The position numbers and the translations under genes were made by a program. From assembly GCF_001592755.1 (NCBI RefSeq), contig NZ_LUKF01000016.1:1-64000 (forward strand): a stretch of DNA of 64,000 nt, read 5' to 3'. Shown here one piece after another: positions 246-9,317 of this stretch (within the stretch, counting starts at the first letter, position 1; every line of letters starts with the position of its first letter). Source of the DNA: Bdellovibrio bacteriovorus. GTDB taxonomy: Bacteria; Bdellovibrionota; Bdellovibrionia; Bdellovibrionales; Bdellovibrionaceae. Under the pieces are notes generated by a model. That model was not told where the DNA came from and did not search any database. It saw nothing but the letters and a program-made list of their open reading frames with translations.

Positions 246-3200
246 ATGGTCACACTTCGGAACGTATTTATTATTGTGCTGTCCATATCAATTTGGTTTT
301 TACCCGGGGAAAGCTTCGCTTCGCCTCAGAGTTTAAGCTATCAAGGACGTATTCTAAAATCTGACGGGACACCGTTAGAGTTTAACAATGTCAGTTTTCT
401 TTTTGAAATCACTTCGGCCGACGGAAGTTGCGTCTTGTATCGTGAACAAAAAGATGGCGTGAATATGCAAAACTCTAACGGTGTGTTTGATGTTCCTATC
501 GGAACGGGCACGCGTCTTTACCCAACAGCCCCCGTCTTTGAACTTTCTGAAGTATTTGTAAACGGCAAGTCCCATAATTGTTATGGCAGTGGCAACTGGA
601 GTGCGAGCAACATCTCGGAACGTTTATTGAAAGTTCAGTTCCATGACGGACTGGGATGGAAAGTGATCTCGCCGGCGAACACCATTCGCTCGGTTCCATT
701 TTCTTATACATCTTATAGCGCACAAAAGATCTCTGATAAAAGCGTCAACGACTTGCTATTAAAATCGGCGGCCCCCGCAGCCACCTGTCTTTCGGGTGAA
801 GTGCTTAGTTGGAATGGAACTCAGTTTGTCTGTGTGACTGACGCCGGGGGCTCCGGCGTCATTTCCGATGTAACGGCTGGCACAGGAATCTCTGTTTCTG
901 GAACAACAACGAAAAACATCAGCCTTACAAATACCAGTATCGCGGCTGGTAGCTACGGTTCGCCAACTCAGGTGCCGACTTTCACCGTCGATGCCCAAGG
1001 CCGATTAACAACAGCAAGTTCTGTGACGATCACAGGTGTTTCACCTGGAGGCAGTGCCGGCGGAGATTTATCAGGATCTTATCCAAACCCTACTGTAGCA
1101 AAATTAGCTGGAAAGAATTTGGCAGTAACATCACCTAGTGGCGGGCAGTTTTTGAAGTACGATGGCAGCGAGTGGGAAAACGCGTCTCTTTCATCTGCAG
1201 ACTTAACAGATGCAGGTTCGCTTTTAAAGTCATCTCAAATGCCTGCCACCTGTGCCGTGAATCAAACGCTTACTTTCGTTTCACCGACAGGAGCGTGGAC
1301 ATGCTCTAATATCGGATTGAATTGGTCCCAAATCACTGCGGGAAAACCAACTACACTTATCGGTTATGGCATCACCGACAAAGTCATTAATAATGCAGGC
1401 ACCGACGCAGGAACGGATATCACGTCCCTGCAATCAGGTTTAAATTCTTCCAAGCCAGCGGCAAGTGCTGCTGGAAGAATCTATATCTCCACAGACACCA
1501 AAGAAATTTATCGCGACAATGGGAGCACTTGGATTCGTGTCGCTACGGAGTCCGGAACCAGCACCGCGACATTAACCGGAGTCACCGCGGGCACAGGACT
1601 TTCTGGTGGAGGAACCTCTGGAACAGTCACTCTCAATCTTTCTAACACATCGGTGACGGCGGGTTCTTATGGATCCAGCACTCAAGTTCCTACATTCACT
1701 GTCGACGCTCAAGGCCGCTTAAGTTCTGCTTCACAAGTCACAATTTCTGGCGTGGCCCCCGGAGGAACTGCGGGGGGAGATCTTTCAGGAAGTTTTCCCA
1801 ATCCCACGGTTGCAAAAATCCAGTCTACCAATGTATCTGCAACCGCGCCGTCTATAGTAGGACAAACACTTCGCTATCAATCGAGTCAATGGACGCCGGC
1901 GTTTTTAAATATTGCGGATATTCGCTCGACGATAACTCCCTTTGGTGGAGTTTTTGCTGCGACCGCGTGTGGTGCCGACCAATCTATGTATTACGAATCT
2001 TCGTCAGACACTTTTAAATGTCAAAATATCACTCTGGCCGCTTCGCAAATCACGAGTGGTCAAATTGCCTCGGCGCGATTACCTGCAAGTGCGAACTATT
2101 GGCAAGATGGAGGCTCAGGCAAAATCGTCTATAGCGGTGGTGCCGTTTCCGCAGCCGGTCTTATTGAATCTACCAGTGGTGGTTTTAAATTCCCTGATGG
2201 CAGCACCCTCACCTCTGCCAATGGAATCAGCGCTGCGGGAAGCGCATTTATCGGATCCGCAAGAACTGTCGCGACAGCGAACTGTAGTTGGGGCCTTGAT
2301 AGCACGACATTCGCGACGCTCAATACGGCCAATGCAAACTGTGCTTTACCCACATTGGAAGGGTCTGCTCTTATACCAAGTGAAGGTAAAATCCCAGCCG
2401 TGCGTTTTGCGAATTTGAAAGCAGGTCGATATTTAGTTTATGCCTATGGTGCCTTCTATTCAAACACCGGCAGTTGCTTCTTTCGCATTACTGATGGCAC
2501 TCAAACATCTGAAGCGACAAACACCCATTCCGCAACTACGGATCGAACAAGTCTGATCGTTGGCGAGTTCAACTACACTGCAGACCAACCCACAATCACT
2601 TATAAAATTGAAATACGCAGATGGACGGGCTCGGGTCCTTGTAACATCAGCAATGCGGTCGATTATGGCGCTGGACAGACTTTTAAAATGAGTCTGTACC
2701 GAGTCGAAAAACCCGCAGAAGCTTCTGATAATTTAGGTGATCATGTCGCCACAAACAATCTTGTCTTAGGCAATCACTACTTGTCCGGCGATGGCTCTAA
2801 CTCAGGAATTGGAATCACAGCTTCAGGCAATGTGGGCGTGGGTACCAACGCGCCTGTCACAACTTTAGATGCTCGCGGCGAAGTTCGTATTGGCAATACA
2901 GGAGCAAGTTGCAGCGGCGCGATTGAAGGCGCCACTCGATATAATAGCACCTCAAAGAAATTAGAATTCTGTGACGGCAGCACTTGGCGCCCCGTCACTT
3001 CAACCACCCGCAGAACTGTGTGCACCTATGATAACTCCGCCTACAGCACACAAGTGAATGGACAGAACTTAATAAACTGGGGAGCCGGTCATTGTGACAA
3101 CGGTTACCCTAGCAGTGGTTGTGTTGGTTATCTTTCTAAAGCCGTGGCCTGCGGAAGTGATAGCGATTGGGCCGCATTAGGTCCAAATGAAACACCTTAC

Positions 3201-3302
3201 GGCGGAGGCGTGGCGGTCGGAGCCAATGGCGGTATTTCATGGTCGATGGCGACTCCATGTACCGGAGTCTGGGTGCGCGCGGTGTACGAATGTTCTAACT
3301 AG
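246..3302 (+). CDS. MAT-like trimeric fibre protein, jelly-roll-like plus C-terminal tip domain
   Basis: Predicted exported fibre of 1018 aa. Residues 1-26 are a signal peptide ending near SFA-SPQ. Residues about 27-175 form the base domain (SPQSLSYQGRIL, SFLFEI) shared with the next gene. A shaft of phage-fibre-like repeats follows: TFTVDAQGRL and GGDLSGSYPNP around residue 270 and again around 510. Residues about 670-820, rich in aromatic strands, resemble a C1q/TNF-like jelly roll. VGVGTNAPVTTLD (near 865) is a chaperone-like fibre motif, and residues about 920-1018 are a Cys-containing tip. The architecture matches Bdellovibrio mosaic adhesive trimer proteins, which recognise prey surfaces. 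The ligand is unknown. No clear SD precedes the ATG. Confidence 0.85.
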   Translation: MVTLRNVFIIVLSISIWFLPGESFASPQSLSYQGRILKSDGTPLEFNNVSFLFEITSADGSCVLYREQKDGVNMQNSNGVFDVPIGTGTRLYPTAPVFELSEVFVNGKSHNCYGSGNWSASNISERLLKVQFHDGLGWKVISPANTIRSVPFSYTSYSAQKISDKSVNDLLLKSAAPAATCLSGEVLSWNGTQFVCVTDAGGSGVISDVTAGTGISVSGTTTKNISLTNTSIAAGSYGSPTQVPTFTVDAQGRLTTASSVTITGVSPGGSAGGDLSGSYPNPTVAKLAGKNLAVTSPSGGQFLKYDGSEWENASLSSADLTDAGSLLKSSQMPATCAVNQTLTFVSPTGAWTCSNIGLNWSQITAGKPTTLIGYGITDKVINNAGTDAGTDITSLQSGLNSSKPAASAAGRIYISTDTKEIYRDNGSTWIRVATESGTSTATLTGVTAGTGLSGGGTSGTVTLNLSNTSVTAGSYGSSTQVPTFTVDAQGRLSSASQVTISGVAPGGTAGGDLSGSFPNPTVAKIQSTNVSATAPSIVGQTLRYQSSQWTPAFLNIADIRSTITPFGGVFAATACGADQSMYYESSSDTFKCQNITLAASQITSGQIASARLPASANYWQDGGSGKIVYSGGAVSAAGLIESTSGGFKFPDGSTLTSANGISAAGSAFIGSARTVATANCSWGLDSTTFATLNTANANCALPTLEGSALIPSEGKIPAVRFANLKAGRYLVYAYGAFYSNTGSCFFRITDGTQTSEATNTHSATTDRTSLIVGEFNYTADQPTITYKIEIRRWTGSGPCNISNAVDYGAGQTFKMSLYRVEKPAEASDNLGDHVATNNLVLGNHYLSGDGSNSGIGITASGNVGVGTNAPVTTLDARGEVRIGNTGASCSGAIEGATRYNSTSKKLEFCDGSTWRPVTSTTRRTVCTYDNSAYSTQVNGQNLINWGAGHCDNGYPSSGCVGYLSKAVACGSDSDWAALGPNETPYGGGVAVGANGGISWSMATPCTGVWVRAVYECSN

Positions 3303-3321
3303 GAAAGGCAGAACGCTGGTT

Positions 3322-5679
3322 ATGAAGACCTTCTTGTACGTTTCAAAAATAACGATGCTTGTCTTCATCATCACTTATTCACTAGTGGCGAATGCATCGC
3401 CACAAAGCTTAAGTTATCAAGGCCGTATTCTAAAAACGGACGGCACACCCTTGCAGTTCAACAATGTCAGTTTTCTTTTTGAGATCACATCTGCGGATGG
3501 AAACTGTGTTTTGTATCGAGAACAAAAAGATGCCGTGAACATGCAAAACTCGAATGGCGTCTTTGACGTACCTATCGGATTAGGCACTCGCTTGTTTCCG
3601 ACAGGTCCCGTGTTTTCTCTTTCGGATGTCTTTGTTAACGGCATCACTTATTCTTGTGCCGGCAGCGGTTCTTGGATTGCCAGCAATGCGGCGGAAAGAC
3701 TTTTAAAGGTGCAGTTCCACGATGGCTTGGGTTGGAATGTCATTTCCCCCGCAAACATCATTCGTTCCGTGCCATTTGCGCACACAGCCTACAGCGCGCA
3801 AAAGATTGCAGATAAATCTCTGAATGATCTCGTACTAAAATCCACCATCCCTGGATCCTCTTGTACCGCAGGACAAGTCATTACTTGGGACGGAGGTGTT
3901 TTCAAATGTGTCACTGATGCCGGTGGAGCCGGCGTTATTACCGATGTCCTTGCAGGAACAGGAATCAATGTCACCGGCACAACATCCAAGACCGTAGGAC
4001 TGAATAACACAGCCGTCACACCAGGAGCCTATGGGTCTTCTACACAAGTTGCTACTTTCACTGTTGATGCTCAAGGCCGATTGACCTCGGCCTCGAACGT
4101 CACCATTACAGGCATCACTCCCGGTGGCGCCGCCAGCGGAGATTTAACCGGCAATTATCCGAATCCTTCTGTAGCGAAAATACAGGGCACAACGGTATCG
4201 GGATCCTCCCCCACTGGAACGGGTCAGGTTTTGCGTTATCAATCTAGTCAATGGACTCCCGCCTTCTTGAGTGTCGCCGACATTCGTTCAACTATAGCTC
4301 CCTTCGGTGGCGCTTTTGCTAATGCTACTTGCGGCGCAGATCAGTCGATGTACTACGAATCCTCAACGGACACCTTCAAGTGTCAGAACATTGGCCTTTC
4401 CGCATCGCAAATCACGAGTGGCCAGATCGACGTATCACGACTGCCTTCCAGTGCGACCCTTTGGCAAGAAAATGGTGCCGGCACAATTTACTACAACGGA
4501 AATAAAGTTGGGGTTGGCACAAATACTCCGCGAGTCGCTTTGGATATCGGGAGTAAAACAGATGCCTTGGCGGTTCCCGTAGGCACGACAGCACAGCAGC
4601 CCGCGACTCCTGCCATGGGCTTTATTCGATTCAATACGACACTGGCCGCGTTGGAAGTCTTCGATGGGACAACGTGGGTGGTGCTTGATAACGGCAATAA
4701 CTATGTCAGTCCTGCCGGTCTTATCACTGCATTTTCACGTAACACTTGTCCTGCGGGATGGCTTGAGGCCAATGGCGCCGCTATTTCGCGAACGACTTAT
4801 GCATCTCTTTTTTCTGCTATTGGAACAACATTTGGAACAGGTGATGGAAGTTCCACTTTCAATCTGCCTGATCTGCGCGGCGAATTTATCCGGGGCTTCG
4901 ATAACGGGCGTGGTGTCGACTCGGGCCGCGTATTTGGTTCAAAACAAAAAGGTTCGCTTCTTGTCGGTGACGATGGTAACGGCGTGAATTCCGTTTCCAT
5001 GTCGGGCACTTTCGCGGCCACCACTCAATCAGATCCTATTGTTGCTACGGACTATCCTGGCGTAGCCGCTTCAACCACTGCGGCAGATAGCGTAAATTAT
5101 TACACAACATCGGCTGTTCCTAATTATTACGGCGTGTCACGACCTCGCAACGTGGCCTTAATTTATTGTGTGAGTACGGCCAGTAGCTCGCAAAGAACGG
5201 TGGCGAGCGCGGGATCAGGAACGGCGAATACAGTTCCTGTTTGGACAAGCACTACAGCCCTGGGTGACAGTCCCCTCACGGTCTCTGGTGGAAATGTCGG
5301 CATCGGCACCAGCACACCTTCAGCAAATTTAGAAGTGAATGGAACGATTAAGTTTGGCGGACAGAAGATTGCACGAGTCACAACTTGTAAGCGCACCGGA
5401 AGTGTCTCGACATTCAATGCAAATTGCTTTTACTGGAAGTGGGCCGCGGGTGACTGTGATAACGGTTTACCTGTAGGCAATTGCACGGGCTTTATGGTGA
5501 AAGCCGCTCATGGAGGCGAAGATCAAGATTGGGAAGTATGGGTGCCCGGCGAGACTATGACTCCCGCGACCTGCAGTCCAAATACAACAGCGGCCCCTAA
5601 TGGCGGTATGTCGTGGTGGTGCACAGGGTGCGCAAACTCAGGACTGCGCGTATCGGCCACGTATATGTGCGATCAATAA
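3322..5679 (+). CDS. MAT-like trimeric fibre protein with phage tail-collar domain
   Basis: Exported fibre of 785 aa, a tandem relative of the gene before it. ATG 3322 gives a clean signal peptide ending VANA-SPQ; an in-frame extension to 3187 would run into the upstream gene. GGAAAGG next to the upstream stop serves as SD. The base domain and one GGDL-type shaft repeat are shared, as is the QSSQWTPAFL segment. Residues about 465-535 are a phage tail-collar domain (CPAGWLEANG, FNLPDLRGEFIRGFD). VGIGTSTP lies near 658, followed by a tip (about 685-785) related to, but clearly different from, the first gene's tip. Probably co-transcribed with it (19-bp gap). Likely a prey or surface adhesin; the target is unknown. 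Confidence 0.85.
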   Translation: MKTFLYVSKITMLVFIITYSLVANASPQSLSYQGRILKTDGTPLQFNNVSFLFEITSADGNCVLYREQKDAVNMQNSNGVFDVPIGLGTRLFPTGPVFSLSDVFVNGITYSCAGSGSWIASNAAERLLKVQFHDGLGWNVISPANIIRSVPFAHTAYSAQKIADKSLNDLVLKSTIPGSSCTAGQVITWDGGVFKCVTDAGGAGVITDVLAGTGINVTGTTSKTVGLNNTAVTPGAYGSSTQVATFTVDAQGRLTSASNVTITGITPGGAASGDLTGNYPNPSVAKIQGTTVSGSSPTGTGQVLRYQSSQWTPAFLSVADIRSTIAPFGGAFANATCGADQSMYYESSTDTFKCQNIGLSASQITSGQIDVSRLPSSATLWQENGAGTIYYNGNKVGVGTNTPRVALDIGSKTDALAVPVGTTAQQPATPAMGFIRFNTTLAALEVFDGTTWVVLDNGNNYVSPAGLITAFSRNTCPAGWLEANGAAISRTTYASLFSAIGTTFGTGDGSSTFNLPDLRGEFIRGFDNGRGVDSGRVFGSKQKGSLLVGDDGNGVNSVSMSGTFAATTQSDPIVATDYPGVAASTTAADSVNYYTTSAVPNYYGVSRPRNVALIYCVSTASSSQRTVASAGSGTANTVPVWTSTTALGDSPLTVSGGNVGIGTSTPSANLEVNGTIKFGGQKIARVTTCKRTGSVSTFNANCFYWKWAAGDCDNGLPVGNCTGFMVKAAHGGEDQDWEVWVPGETMTPATCSPNTTAAPNGGMSWWCTGCANSGLRVSATYMCDQ

Positions 5680-5775: not shown

Positions 5776-6561
5776 ATGATTCTACTTAAAACCAAAAAGC
5801 TTTTGGCGCTGGGACTTCTTTCTTGGAGTCTTCCCGCCTCTGCCTTGCACATCATGATCGATCCCGGTCATGGAGGTGTTGATACGGGCGCCGTGCATGG
5901 AGCCGCAAAAGAAGCGGATTTGGTTTTAAAAGTCGCTCAACGTTTAAAAACCATCTTAGAAAAAAACACGGACTTCAAAGTCAGCATCACACGCACAACA
6001 GATCGCAACTTGGGTCTTCCTTCGCGGGTGAAGATGGCCGAGGATGCCAAAGCTGATTTGTTCGTCAGCCTTCACGCCAATGCGGCTTCTGATCAGCGCG
6101 CCAAAGGTGTTGAATTCTTTTTTCAAAACAATCTTCCCCCTGATGAAGAAAGTTTATTTCTAGCCAGCCAAGAAAATCAGATGGTTCTTAATAGCAAGGA
6201 ACTTCACGATATTTCTGGTGGTGACGAGCTTTCAAAAAAAGGGGACGTTGCCGCGATCGTCGAAGATCTGCGTCGTCAGAACCGCATGGAAAGCAGCTTG
6301 CACTTGTCAAAGACACTGACGCAAGTGTGGAACGCTGACAGCAGCGCCACGCACGCGACAATCAAACAAGCTCCGTTCTATGTCATTTCAAAAACATCGA
6401 TGCCGTCAGTACTTATTGAAATCGGTTTTTTGACGAATCCTCGCGAAGCTAAAAGACTTTTGACGTCGGAATACCAGAGTGATCTTGCTCAAAAAATCTA
6501 CAGCGCCCTGCTCTCTTACAAAGAAAAGATGGACAACCGCACAGCGAAGACATTAGATTAG
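5776..6561 (+). CDS. N-acetylmuramoyl-L-alanine amidase (Amidase_3 family)
   Basis: Zinc amidase that cuts the bond between muramic acid and the stem peptide of peptidoglycan, acting in the periplasm. Signal peptide 1-23 (LPASA). The catalytic domain starts at once: IDPGHGG with zinc ligand His32, Glu46 in AAKEAD, His100 in SLHANAA and the catalytic Glu near residue 216 in LIEIGFLTN, so all key residues are present. The 261-aa length means no AMIN or SPOR targeting domain. ATG 5776 gives the cleanest signal peptide, but ATG 5755, with AGGG upstream, is a real alternative. It sits 24 bp before rph. A role in septum splitting or prey-wall digestion is inference. Confidence 0.88.
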   Translation: MILLKTKKLLALGLLSWSLPASALHIMIDPGHGGVDTGAVHGAAKEADLVLKVAQRLKTILEKNTDFKVSITRTTDRNLGLPSRVKMAEDAKADLFVSLHANAASDQRAKGVEFFFQNNLPPDEESLFLASQENQMVLNSKELHDISGGDELSKKGDVAAIVEDLRRQNRMESSLHLSKTLTQVWNADSSATHATIKQAPFYVISKTSMPSVLIEIGFLTNPREAKRLLTSEYQSDLAQKIYSALLSYKEKMDNRTAKTLD

Positions 6562-7929: not shown

Positions 7930-7959
7930 TTTACACGATAGACTTTCGTAATCTATTGT
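7930..7959 (+). promoter_or_regulatory. Candidate promoter abutting the metallopeptidase start
   Basis: TTTACA (7930-7935), 18 bp, TATTGT (7954-7959). The -10 ends seven bases before ATG 7967 and there is no SD in the intervening ACACAAA, so the mRNA may be leaderless. A second pairing (TTGTGT 7925-7930 with TAATCT 7949-7954) is also possible. Confidence 0.4.
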
Positions 7960-7966
7960 ACACAAA

Positions 7967-8698
7967 ATGAAGTACTTGTTTTTCCTTATTAGCGTAACTA
8001 TCTCTCCCCCCAGCTACGCTCAGACCTGCCCATCCAACGAACATTGGGTCTCGCCCCATACACGCAGCTCATATGTAACCGCAAATGGAAAAACCGTGCG
8101 ACCCGCTTTCATTAAGGGCCATTGCCGGAAAAATCCTGAAGGTTATACCACATGGCTCCCCAAAATTCAGGACAATTTACCTTCAAACTGGCCACATAAA
8201 AATGAGAGTTCAAGAACGTGGAGTACCGAAGAAAAAGAAAAAGTTCTAGAAGCAATGGCCACGATTCCTCCTGAATTATGGAGTCCCAAAATAACAGGTA
8301 TACACAGAGCAAAACGATCAAAAGATCATCCTAATCCGGCAACTTCTGCCGATGGGATTATTGTGGTTTATGATAGTGCATTTGAAAGAGAACGAAATCT
8401 CGCCCGAATTTTCACCCATGAACTGGCGCACCAGAAGTATTATGATATGACTCTTGAGCAAAGAGAAAGCTATTGGTATCCTATGAACTGGCTTCCGATT
8501 AATTCTCCGAAGAATATTTTCATATCCCGATCGGAAGGGTTTGTACAAGACGATGGTCGGGAGTCTCCAGAAGAGGACTTTGCAAACAACGTAGAATACT
8601 TTCTTTTTGATCCAAAAAAGTTAGAAAAAACTACACCCCATGCGACAAAATGGATAAAAAAGTACTTCGGTGATAAATTTAAAATAAGGGAGAAATAG
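7967..8698 (+). CDS. Secreted zinc-metallopeptidase-like protein (HELAH motif)
   Basis: 243-aa exported protein; signal peptide 1-18 (SYA-QTCP). Near residue 152 it has HELAHQKYYD, an HExxH zinc site, and about 47 residues on SPEEDFANNVEYFLFDP supplies an acidic third ligand, the gluzincin-like arrangement. Seen in sequence: both motifs, two N-terminal Cys residues and a basic C terminus. The family was not identified beyond this, and proteolysis is inference. It stands two bases before the BamE-like lipoprotein gene, so the two form an operon. No SD precedes the ATG. Possible substrates include prey periplasmic protein or self envelope protein. Confidence 0.7.
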   Translation: MKYLFFLISVTISPPSYAQTCPSNEHWVSPHTRSSYVTANGKTVRPAFIKGHCRKNPEGYTTWLPKIQDNLPSNWPHKNESSRTWSTEEKEKVLEAMATIPPELWSPKITGIHRAKRSKDHPNPATSADGIIVVYDSAFERERNLARIFTHELAHQKYYDMTLEQRESYWYPMNWLPINSPKNIFISRSEGFVQDDGRESPEEDFANNVEYFLFDPKKLEKTTPHATKWIKKYFGDKFKIREK

Positions 8699-8700
8699 TA

Positions 8701-9228
8701 ATGAAAAATATCCTATGTTTACTCCTCACCGCTCTCCAACTTTCAGCCTGCGCTCTCCTAGAAAAGCAGCATCGGGAACTCCCGGCTTCGGTTCTGGGTT
8801 TGCTTTCTCCCGGCCAATCCACTACGGGTGAGGTTACCGCAAAATTAGGCTCACCGAATATGAAGGTGAGCCTTCCTGATAATGAAACAGCTTGGATTTA
8901 CTTGAACAAAGAATCTAAAAGCACGCGTCTGTCCATAATTTTTGACACCCCAAAGAGTGTTATAAAATCTATACACTGGTTTGCTTCTTCGACAGATCCC
9001 GAAGTTCAATTAAATACAGCCAAAAAACAGTTTGCAAATGACACCTTCACGGCAGCATCCAGCTCTTGGATTAATCCACATGCCTCCCCTGACGAAGTTA
9101 TATATAACAATGCAGACTCTACTGTTCATATTGCTCTAAGAAAGAGTAGAAATGAAGTCAGCGCTATAAGTAAAAGCGATGGCAGTGCAGTCGCAGACCG
9201 TAAACCTGCTTCCAAATTCGAGCTATAG
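8701..9228 (+). CDS. BamE/SmpA-like lipoprotein
   Basis: 175-aa predicted lipoprotein with lipobox LSAC (Cys about 17). Residues about 35-60 carry LSPGQSTTGEVTAKLGSPN, the small-domain signature of BamE/SmpA/OmlA-type outer-membrane lipoproteins, followed by a strand pair ending in AWIYL. The C-terminal half has no recognised motif. It follows the metallopeptidase gene by two bases. It is longer than a typical BamE (about 110 aa) and need not be part of the BAM complex; many proteins share this fold. Role unknown. Confidence 0.6.
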   Translation: MKNILCLLLTALQLSACALLEKQHRELPASVLGLLSPGQSTTGEVTAKLGSPNMKVSLPDNETAWIYLNKESKSTRLSIIFDTPKSVIKSIHWFASSTDPEVQLNTAKKQFANDTFTAASSSWINPHASPDEVIYNNADSTVHIALRKSRNEVSAISKSDGSAVADRKPASKFEL

Positions 9229-9279
9229 CAGCCTCCTTTTTCTTACAGGCCTTTTAAAATTCGCCAGCAACATTCATTG

Positions 9280-9317
9280 GCAAGTGCGAAAAAGTGGACA
9301 AAGCCCTCTCCACTTGC
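9280..9317 (+). promoter_or_regulatory. Leader with two alternative stems before prs
   Basis: The same 3' arm can pair two ways: GCAAGTG (9280-9286) with CACTTGC (9311-9317), or AAGTGGA (9292-9298) with TCCACTT (9309-9315). The pairings are mutually exclusive. They sit 45 bp before prs. No T-run follows. An attenuator or processing site is possible but unproven. Confidence 0.35.

Follow-up and report, generated by a model that had tools for sequence, protein, structure and literature searches.

The tandem gene pair and its neighbourhood

Near the start of the window, a 64,000-nucleotide stretch of Bdellovibrio bacteriovorus DNA, two adjacent genes for MAT-type fibres are found, here called A and B (Table 1). 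Both lie on the + strand, and 19 nt separate the stop codon of A from the ATG of B. The open reading frame called mechanically for B begins at 3187, within A; the start that yields a signal peptide is the ATG at 3322. In each protein, SPQSLSYQGRIL comes straight after the opening signal peptide. The modules of A are, in order, a base, shaft 1, a middle block, shaft 2, a TNF-like domain, a stalk and a tip, while B consists of a base, a single shaft, a collar with its following segment, a stalk and a tip.

Table 1 Features of the gene pair and its downstream border (window coordinates)
Feature	Position	Strand	Basis
Gene A, MAT-type fibre, 1018 aa	246..3302	+	Open frame, signal peptide, MAT-type base
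A base domain, aa 26-201	321..848	+	20 genome copies; 77% identity to B base
A shaft 1, middle block and shaft 2, aa 202-655	849..2210	+	A-B comparison by BLASTP/BLASTN; PHROG matches to phage tail fibres
A TNF-like domain, aa 656-820	2211..2705	+	PDB 8okw (Bd2734 tip), E 5.9e-15; sole copy in genome
A stalk, bearing the capping-loop-like motif GNVGVGT, aa 821-918	2706..2999	+	Comparable stretches in further MATs
A Cys-containing tip, aa 919-1018	3000..3302	+	39% to B tip; 78-97% to same-site relatives
Gene B, MAT-type fibre, 785 aa	3322..5679	+	Open frame, ATG 3322, signal peptide and base in the register of A
B base domain, aa 26-200	3397..3921	+	Base comparison and base tree
B shaft plus the pre-collar segment (KVGVGT motif), aa 201-459	3922..4698	+	Alignment of A and B
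B phage-type tail collar domain and receptor-binding-type segment, aa 460-625	4699..5196	+	Pfam Collar E 1.1e-23; C-termini of phage fibres ~50% identical
B stalk/adaptor with GNVGIGT motif, aa 626-685	5197..5376	+	57-65% identity behind collars in other-genus MATs; 63% in L064
B Cys-containing tip, aa 686-785	5377..5679	+	Tip comparisons
amiC-like N-acetylmuramoyl-L-alanine amidase, bordering the variable site downstream	5779..6561	+	Synteny in 12 of the loci from relatives

Downstream of B, the gene order is amidase, rph, rdgB, two more genes and prs. Scans for promoters and terminators returned matches at about chance level. Positions 7950-9300 of the window, between rdgB and prs, have no counterpart in a related genome (G018), with the genes on either side 92-98% identical in DNA. 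Two proteins are encoded in this segment, one secreted, of 243 aa and with a HELAH motif resembling that of zinc proteases, and one of 175 aa that is probably a lipoprotein. In the relatives whose sequence extends that far, the other border of the site is a divergently transcribed gene; it encodes a secreted-looking coiled-coil protein of 400 aa that has no Pfam match (L062, 3744-4946).

Base and shaft

In a search with A 26-201, the base of B was 77% identical over 176 aa, and the next best match in the genome reached 58%. By their bases, A and B are mutual closest paralogues among the 20 MAT-type genes of the genome, in agreement with the preliminary description, which had reported two adjacent genes with the same MAT-type base. 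A beta-rich domain of ~130 aa placed straight after the signal peptide, as in MAT bases, was recognised in both proteins through alignment with paralogues of the same genome. The conserved base and diversified distal end that make MATs mosaic are found in A and B alike. Peptidase_S74 was detected near the C-terminus in six of the eight base paralogues scanned with Pfam (the genome holds 18 further base genes). Neither a Pfam S74 domain nor an SDxxxK motif within the last 250 residues was found in A and B, which are thus of the NS74 type.

The shafts are likewise similar, as had been noted. The shaft of B aligns with shaft 2 of A in BLASTP and BLASTN comparisons of the two genes, at 64-76% identity. 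Relative to B, A contains an extra shaft block of ~238 aa.

Unrelated domains below the tips

The divergence announced in the preliminary description is seen in the distal parts, and both of the domains named there were recognised. The jelly-roll-like module of A corresponds to a TNF-like domain, residues 666-803 aligning to 8okw 10-146 (E 5.9e-15). No match to it was found in the phage collection. The tail-collar domain of B passes the Pfam gathering score for PF07484 Collar by a wide margin (83.4 bits vs a cut-off of 24; E 1.1e-23). B resembles phage collar fibres (KA2-1 gp16, Arya gp16; PHROG 523, 327) at ~50% through the collar and the segment that follows it, up to the ending RPRNVALIYC. 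The match stops 6 bases short of the gene end, stop codon included, in both Klebsiella phage KA2-1 and Enterobacter phage Arya, whereas 160 residues come after it in B. The collar part is therefore C-terminal in both phages examined but internal in B, in a secreted cellular fibre.

The stalk that follows the collar in B is found behind collars in MATs of three other genomes (G014, G061 and G086), with stalks 57-65% and collars 41-53% identical. It is also found behind a different domain in the single gene of L064 (63% identical). In other Bdellovibrionota, collars occur inside large MAT-like proteins (L115 3344-8200, G014; L116 2001-6986, G061; L117 3478-9003, G086).

The Cys-containing tips

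The last ~100 residues of A and B are 38-39% identical and homologous, and within the genome they are found solely in these two proteins. Ten relatives align with 16 invariant columns, four of which are Cys. The tips had been described as related yet distinct. Their relatedness stands, but they belong to the same tip family, and the unrelated part is the module just below. Since A and B share a tip family and differ beneath it, the exchanged part is mainly sub-terminal. The earlier proposal of duplication followed by tip swapping is supported for the tandem duplication and for modular exchange by the base tree, by the orthologous site and by the divergence of the single modules, and is to be amended as regards the tip.

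In the tip tree, B tips group apart from A tips, together with a tip of G332, a member of a distant family. A grouping that forces the A and B tips together was rejected with the G332 sequence included (p-AU 0.005) but not without it (p-AU 0.13). Because the p-AU rises to 0.13 once G332 is removed, separate acquisition of the B tip is suggestive only. The tips of A and B had no match in the phage collection, and a scan of viral contigs for the tip was also empty.

The A tip, modelled as a monomer with AlphaFold (10 sequences), had a pLDDT of 66, with a best Foldseek E of 1.0 and a best VIA Z of 4.5. The Foldseek and VIA hits, to lactococcal phage receptor-binding heads, ENA fibres and Helix agglutinin, were all non-significant. 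Actinohivin repeats gave a whole-sequence profile E of 0.0018 with no individual stretch significant, and this match was taken as chance. For B 455-785, the monomer model had a pLDDT of 43, so that both models are weak.

Module exchange at the same site in relatives

The variable site is bounded by the coiled-coil gene and amiC. In G018 (L062), it holds the same tandem pair. In G008 (L063), A is kept, with a tip at 92%, and a second gene follows whose base and shaft are 79% and 68% identical to those of B; its middle and tip bear no relation to B. A single gene occupies the site in G002 and G013 (L064 and L065; the corresponding records are Bdellovibrio sp. RX1_metabat.bin.37 and DR_7_2.37). 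In this gene, the A shaft (~75%) and the A tip (78%) flank an unrelated middle domain. Its identity to A is ~75% to residue ~650, drops to 4-30% over most of 651-850 and returns to 60-92% across most of the stalk and tip. No MAT lies between the border genes in L071, L072, L073 and L075; in B. bacteriovorus kdesi (L071), a small unrelated ORF is found at the site.

The bases of all eight genes of the site fall into a single clade (support 100/99). No significant BLAST similarity links the middle domains of A, B, the second gene of L063 and the L064 gene to one another, so that four middle domains and two tip families are encountered at one site. A link to solved MAT structures is provided by A, which matches 8okw, and by same-site genes of relatives, which match 8ond. 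The alternative alleles come partly from draft or metagenome assemblies; as the two single-gene genomes agree mutually, assembly chimeras are unlikely there. A test on the order of the duplication and the split from the single-gene genomes gave a p-AU of 0.138 and did not separate the two orders. Among the sister genomes, a cassette is seen to be cleanly exchanged beneath a retained tip.

Mosaic divergence and possible joining points

The preliminary description had expected divergence to be uneven along the genes, and the module-by-module comparison is indeed mosaic. Against G018, dS is 0.06-0.63 in the flanking genes and 0.27-0.52 in the distal half of A, vs 1.96 in the base of A; from the shaft to the stalk of B, it is ~1-1.7 or saturated. 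At fourfold sites, the difference amounts to 59% in the A base and 22% in the A TNF-like domain (base vs distal A, Fisher p 1.3e-7). As synonymous sites are affected, the simplest reading is the import of diverged alleles by recombination. Gene conversion between the bases of A and B was rejected, the orthologues being mutually closer than the neighbours.

These data also bear on plain tandem duplication followed by ordinary divergence, in which an exposed distal part evolves fast without any exchange of modules. The homologous tips of A and B, whose separate origin is not firm, speak for such a history. However, A and B have middle domains of different families (TNF-like vs Collar) with no detectable similarity, set between homologous flanks, identity of A to the L064 and L065 genes falls abruptly and then returns, and the blocks of raised synonymous divergence point to recombination. 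Ordinary divergence is hence considered highly improbable.

The homology of the swapped genes stops at or beside a VGxGT capping-loop-like motif (position 396 in B, 396 in the second gene of L063 and 631 in L064), and between L064 and A it returns around a second VGxGT-type copy ahead of the tip. The capping-motif borders may thus be tolerated joining points.

Comparison with described MATs

The MAT class is known in Bdellovibrio, as had been stated at the outset. Its role as surface adhesins, its TNF-like tips and tip swapping (Bd1334/Bd2133) have already been published (Caulton et al. 2024, PMC10769870), with a count of 21 MATs in HD100. A and B resemble the HD100 MATs in the signal peptide, the N-terminal base, the long shaft with capping-loop-like motifs, the diversified distal part and the ~20 members per genome. 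They differ in being tandem sister genes, in placing a binding-type domain beneath a further Cys tip and in their exchange at one orthologous site. In Bd2734, given as the source of 8okw (PMC10769870), the TNF-like domain is terminal, whereas in A a stalk and another tip follow. The word 'collar' is absent from the main text of that paper, and a search of the literature collection consulted found no MAT paper with 'tail collar'. The tandem sister pair, the Cys tip family, the position of binding-type domains under another tip and the cassette exchange at one orthologous site are apparently new.

Proposed function and significance

At the level of sequence, A and B share base and shaft, bear unrelated sub-terminal domains under a shared Cys tip family and belong to a site of distal-module exchange. 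They are interpreted, with a probability of about 0.8, as MAT surface fibres that arose by tandem duplication beside amiC, in which distal exchange alters binding and keeps anchoring. Anchoring to the predator surface would fall to the base of each fibre and trimerisation to the shaft, and the domain and tip would touch differing prey-surface structures. Recombination with diverged alleles may exchange domains between conserved shaft and adaptor borders, which are marked by capping motifs of the GNVGIGT type. Such an exchange would change the binding target of the fibre with its anchoring intact. It is plausible that the pair broadens prey recognition.

The same architecture could also belong to fibres other than prey-recognition adhesins, with module exchange driven by phage escape or by self or biofilm adhesion. 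The selecting agent is not revealed by variation alone, and single MAT deletions seldom gave a significant predation defect (PMC10769870). Nevertheless, the published MAT tip of Bd2439 binds prey glycans, and MATs are displayed on attack-phase predators, some of them entering the prey compartment (PMC10769870). Phage escape or self-adhesion as the driving force is accordingly regarded as unlikely, and a role in prey contact is preferred.

The presence of other domains at the same spot in relatives makes it look like a place where the predator exchanges its prey-touching parts. A wider proposal, put forward tentatively and with somewhat less than even odds, is that the stretch enclosed by the coiled-coil gene and amiC serves as a locus of cassette exchange and a site of prey-recognition diversification. 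Receptor-binding modules, some of phage type, would be repeatedly replaced there by recombination at shaft and capping-motif borders, with the base and often the tip kept.

How Bdellovibrio recognises its broad prey range is an open question, for which this site offers a natural experiment. Since related strains differ by single modules on similar fibres, the part of a module in prey choice can be studied by strain comparison and single-gene deletion. Moreover, the findings indicate that MAT exchange is possible beneath the tip as well, and that collar domains of phage type serve as internal MAT modules beyond this species.

Other MAT-type genes and Cys tips

Cys tips were also encountered at other loci. 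In G020, at a different site next to a histidine-kinase-like gene, the tip occurs together with YadA head repeats in a MAT in tandem with an S74-type MAT (L066, 4079-10922). In the distant family of the phylum represented by G332, it ends a 260-aa frame beside MAT-like stalk frames (L118, 3148-3930); this gene may be broken or fragmentary. In the genome that holds A and B, a 626-aa MAT on C3 was considered as a relative of Bd2740, and the check gave no support. Elsewhere in this genome, MAT genes are clustered as well, three being consecutive on C16 (L026, G000 C16:538500-554500) and two neighbouring on C7 (L024, G000 C7:1-10500). In the base tree, these neighbours are not mutual closest relatives, in contrast to A and B.
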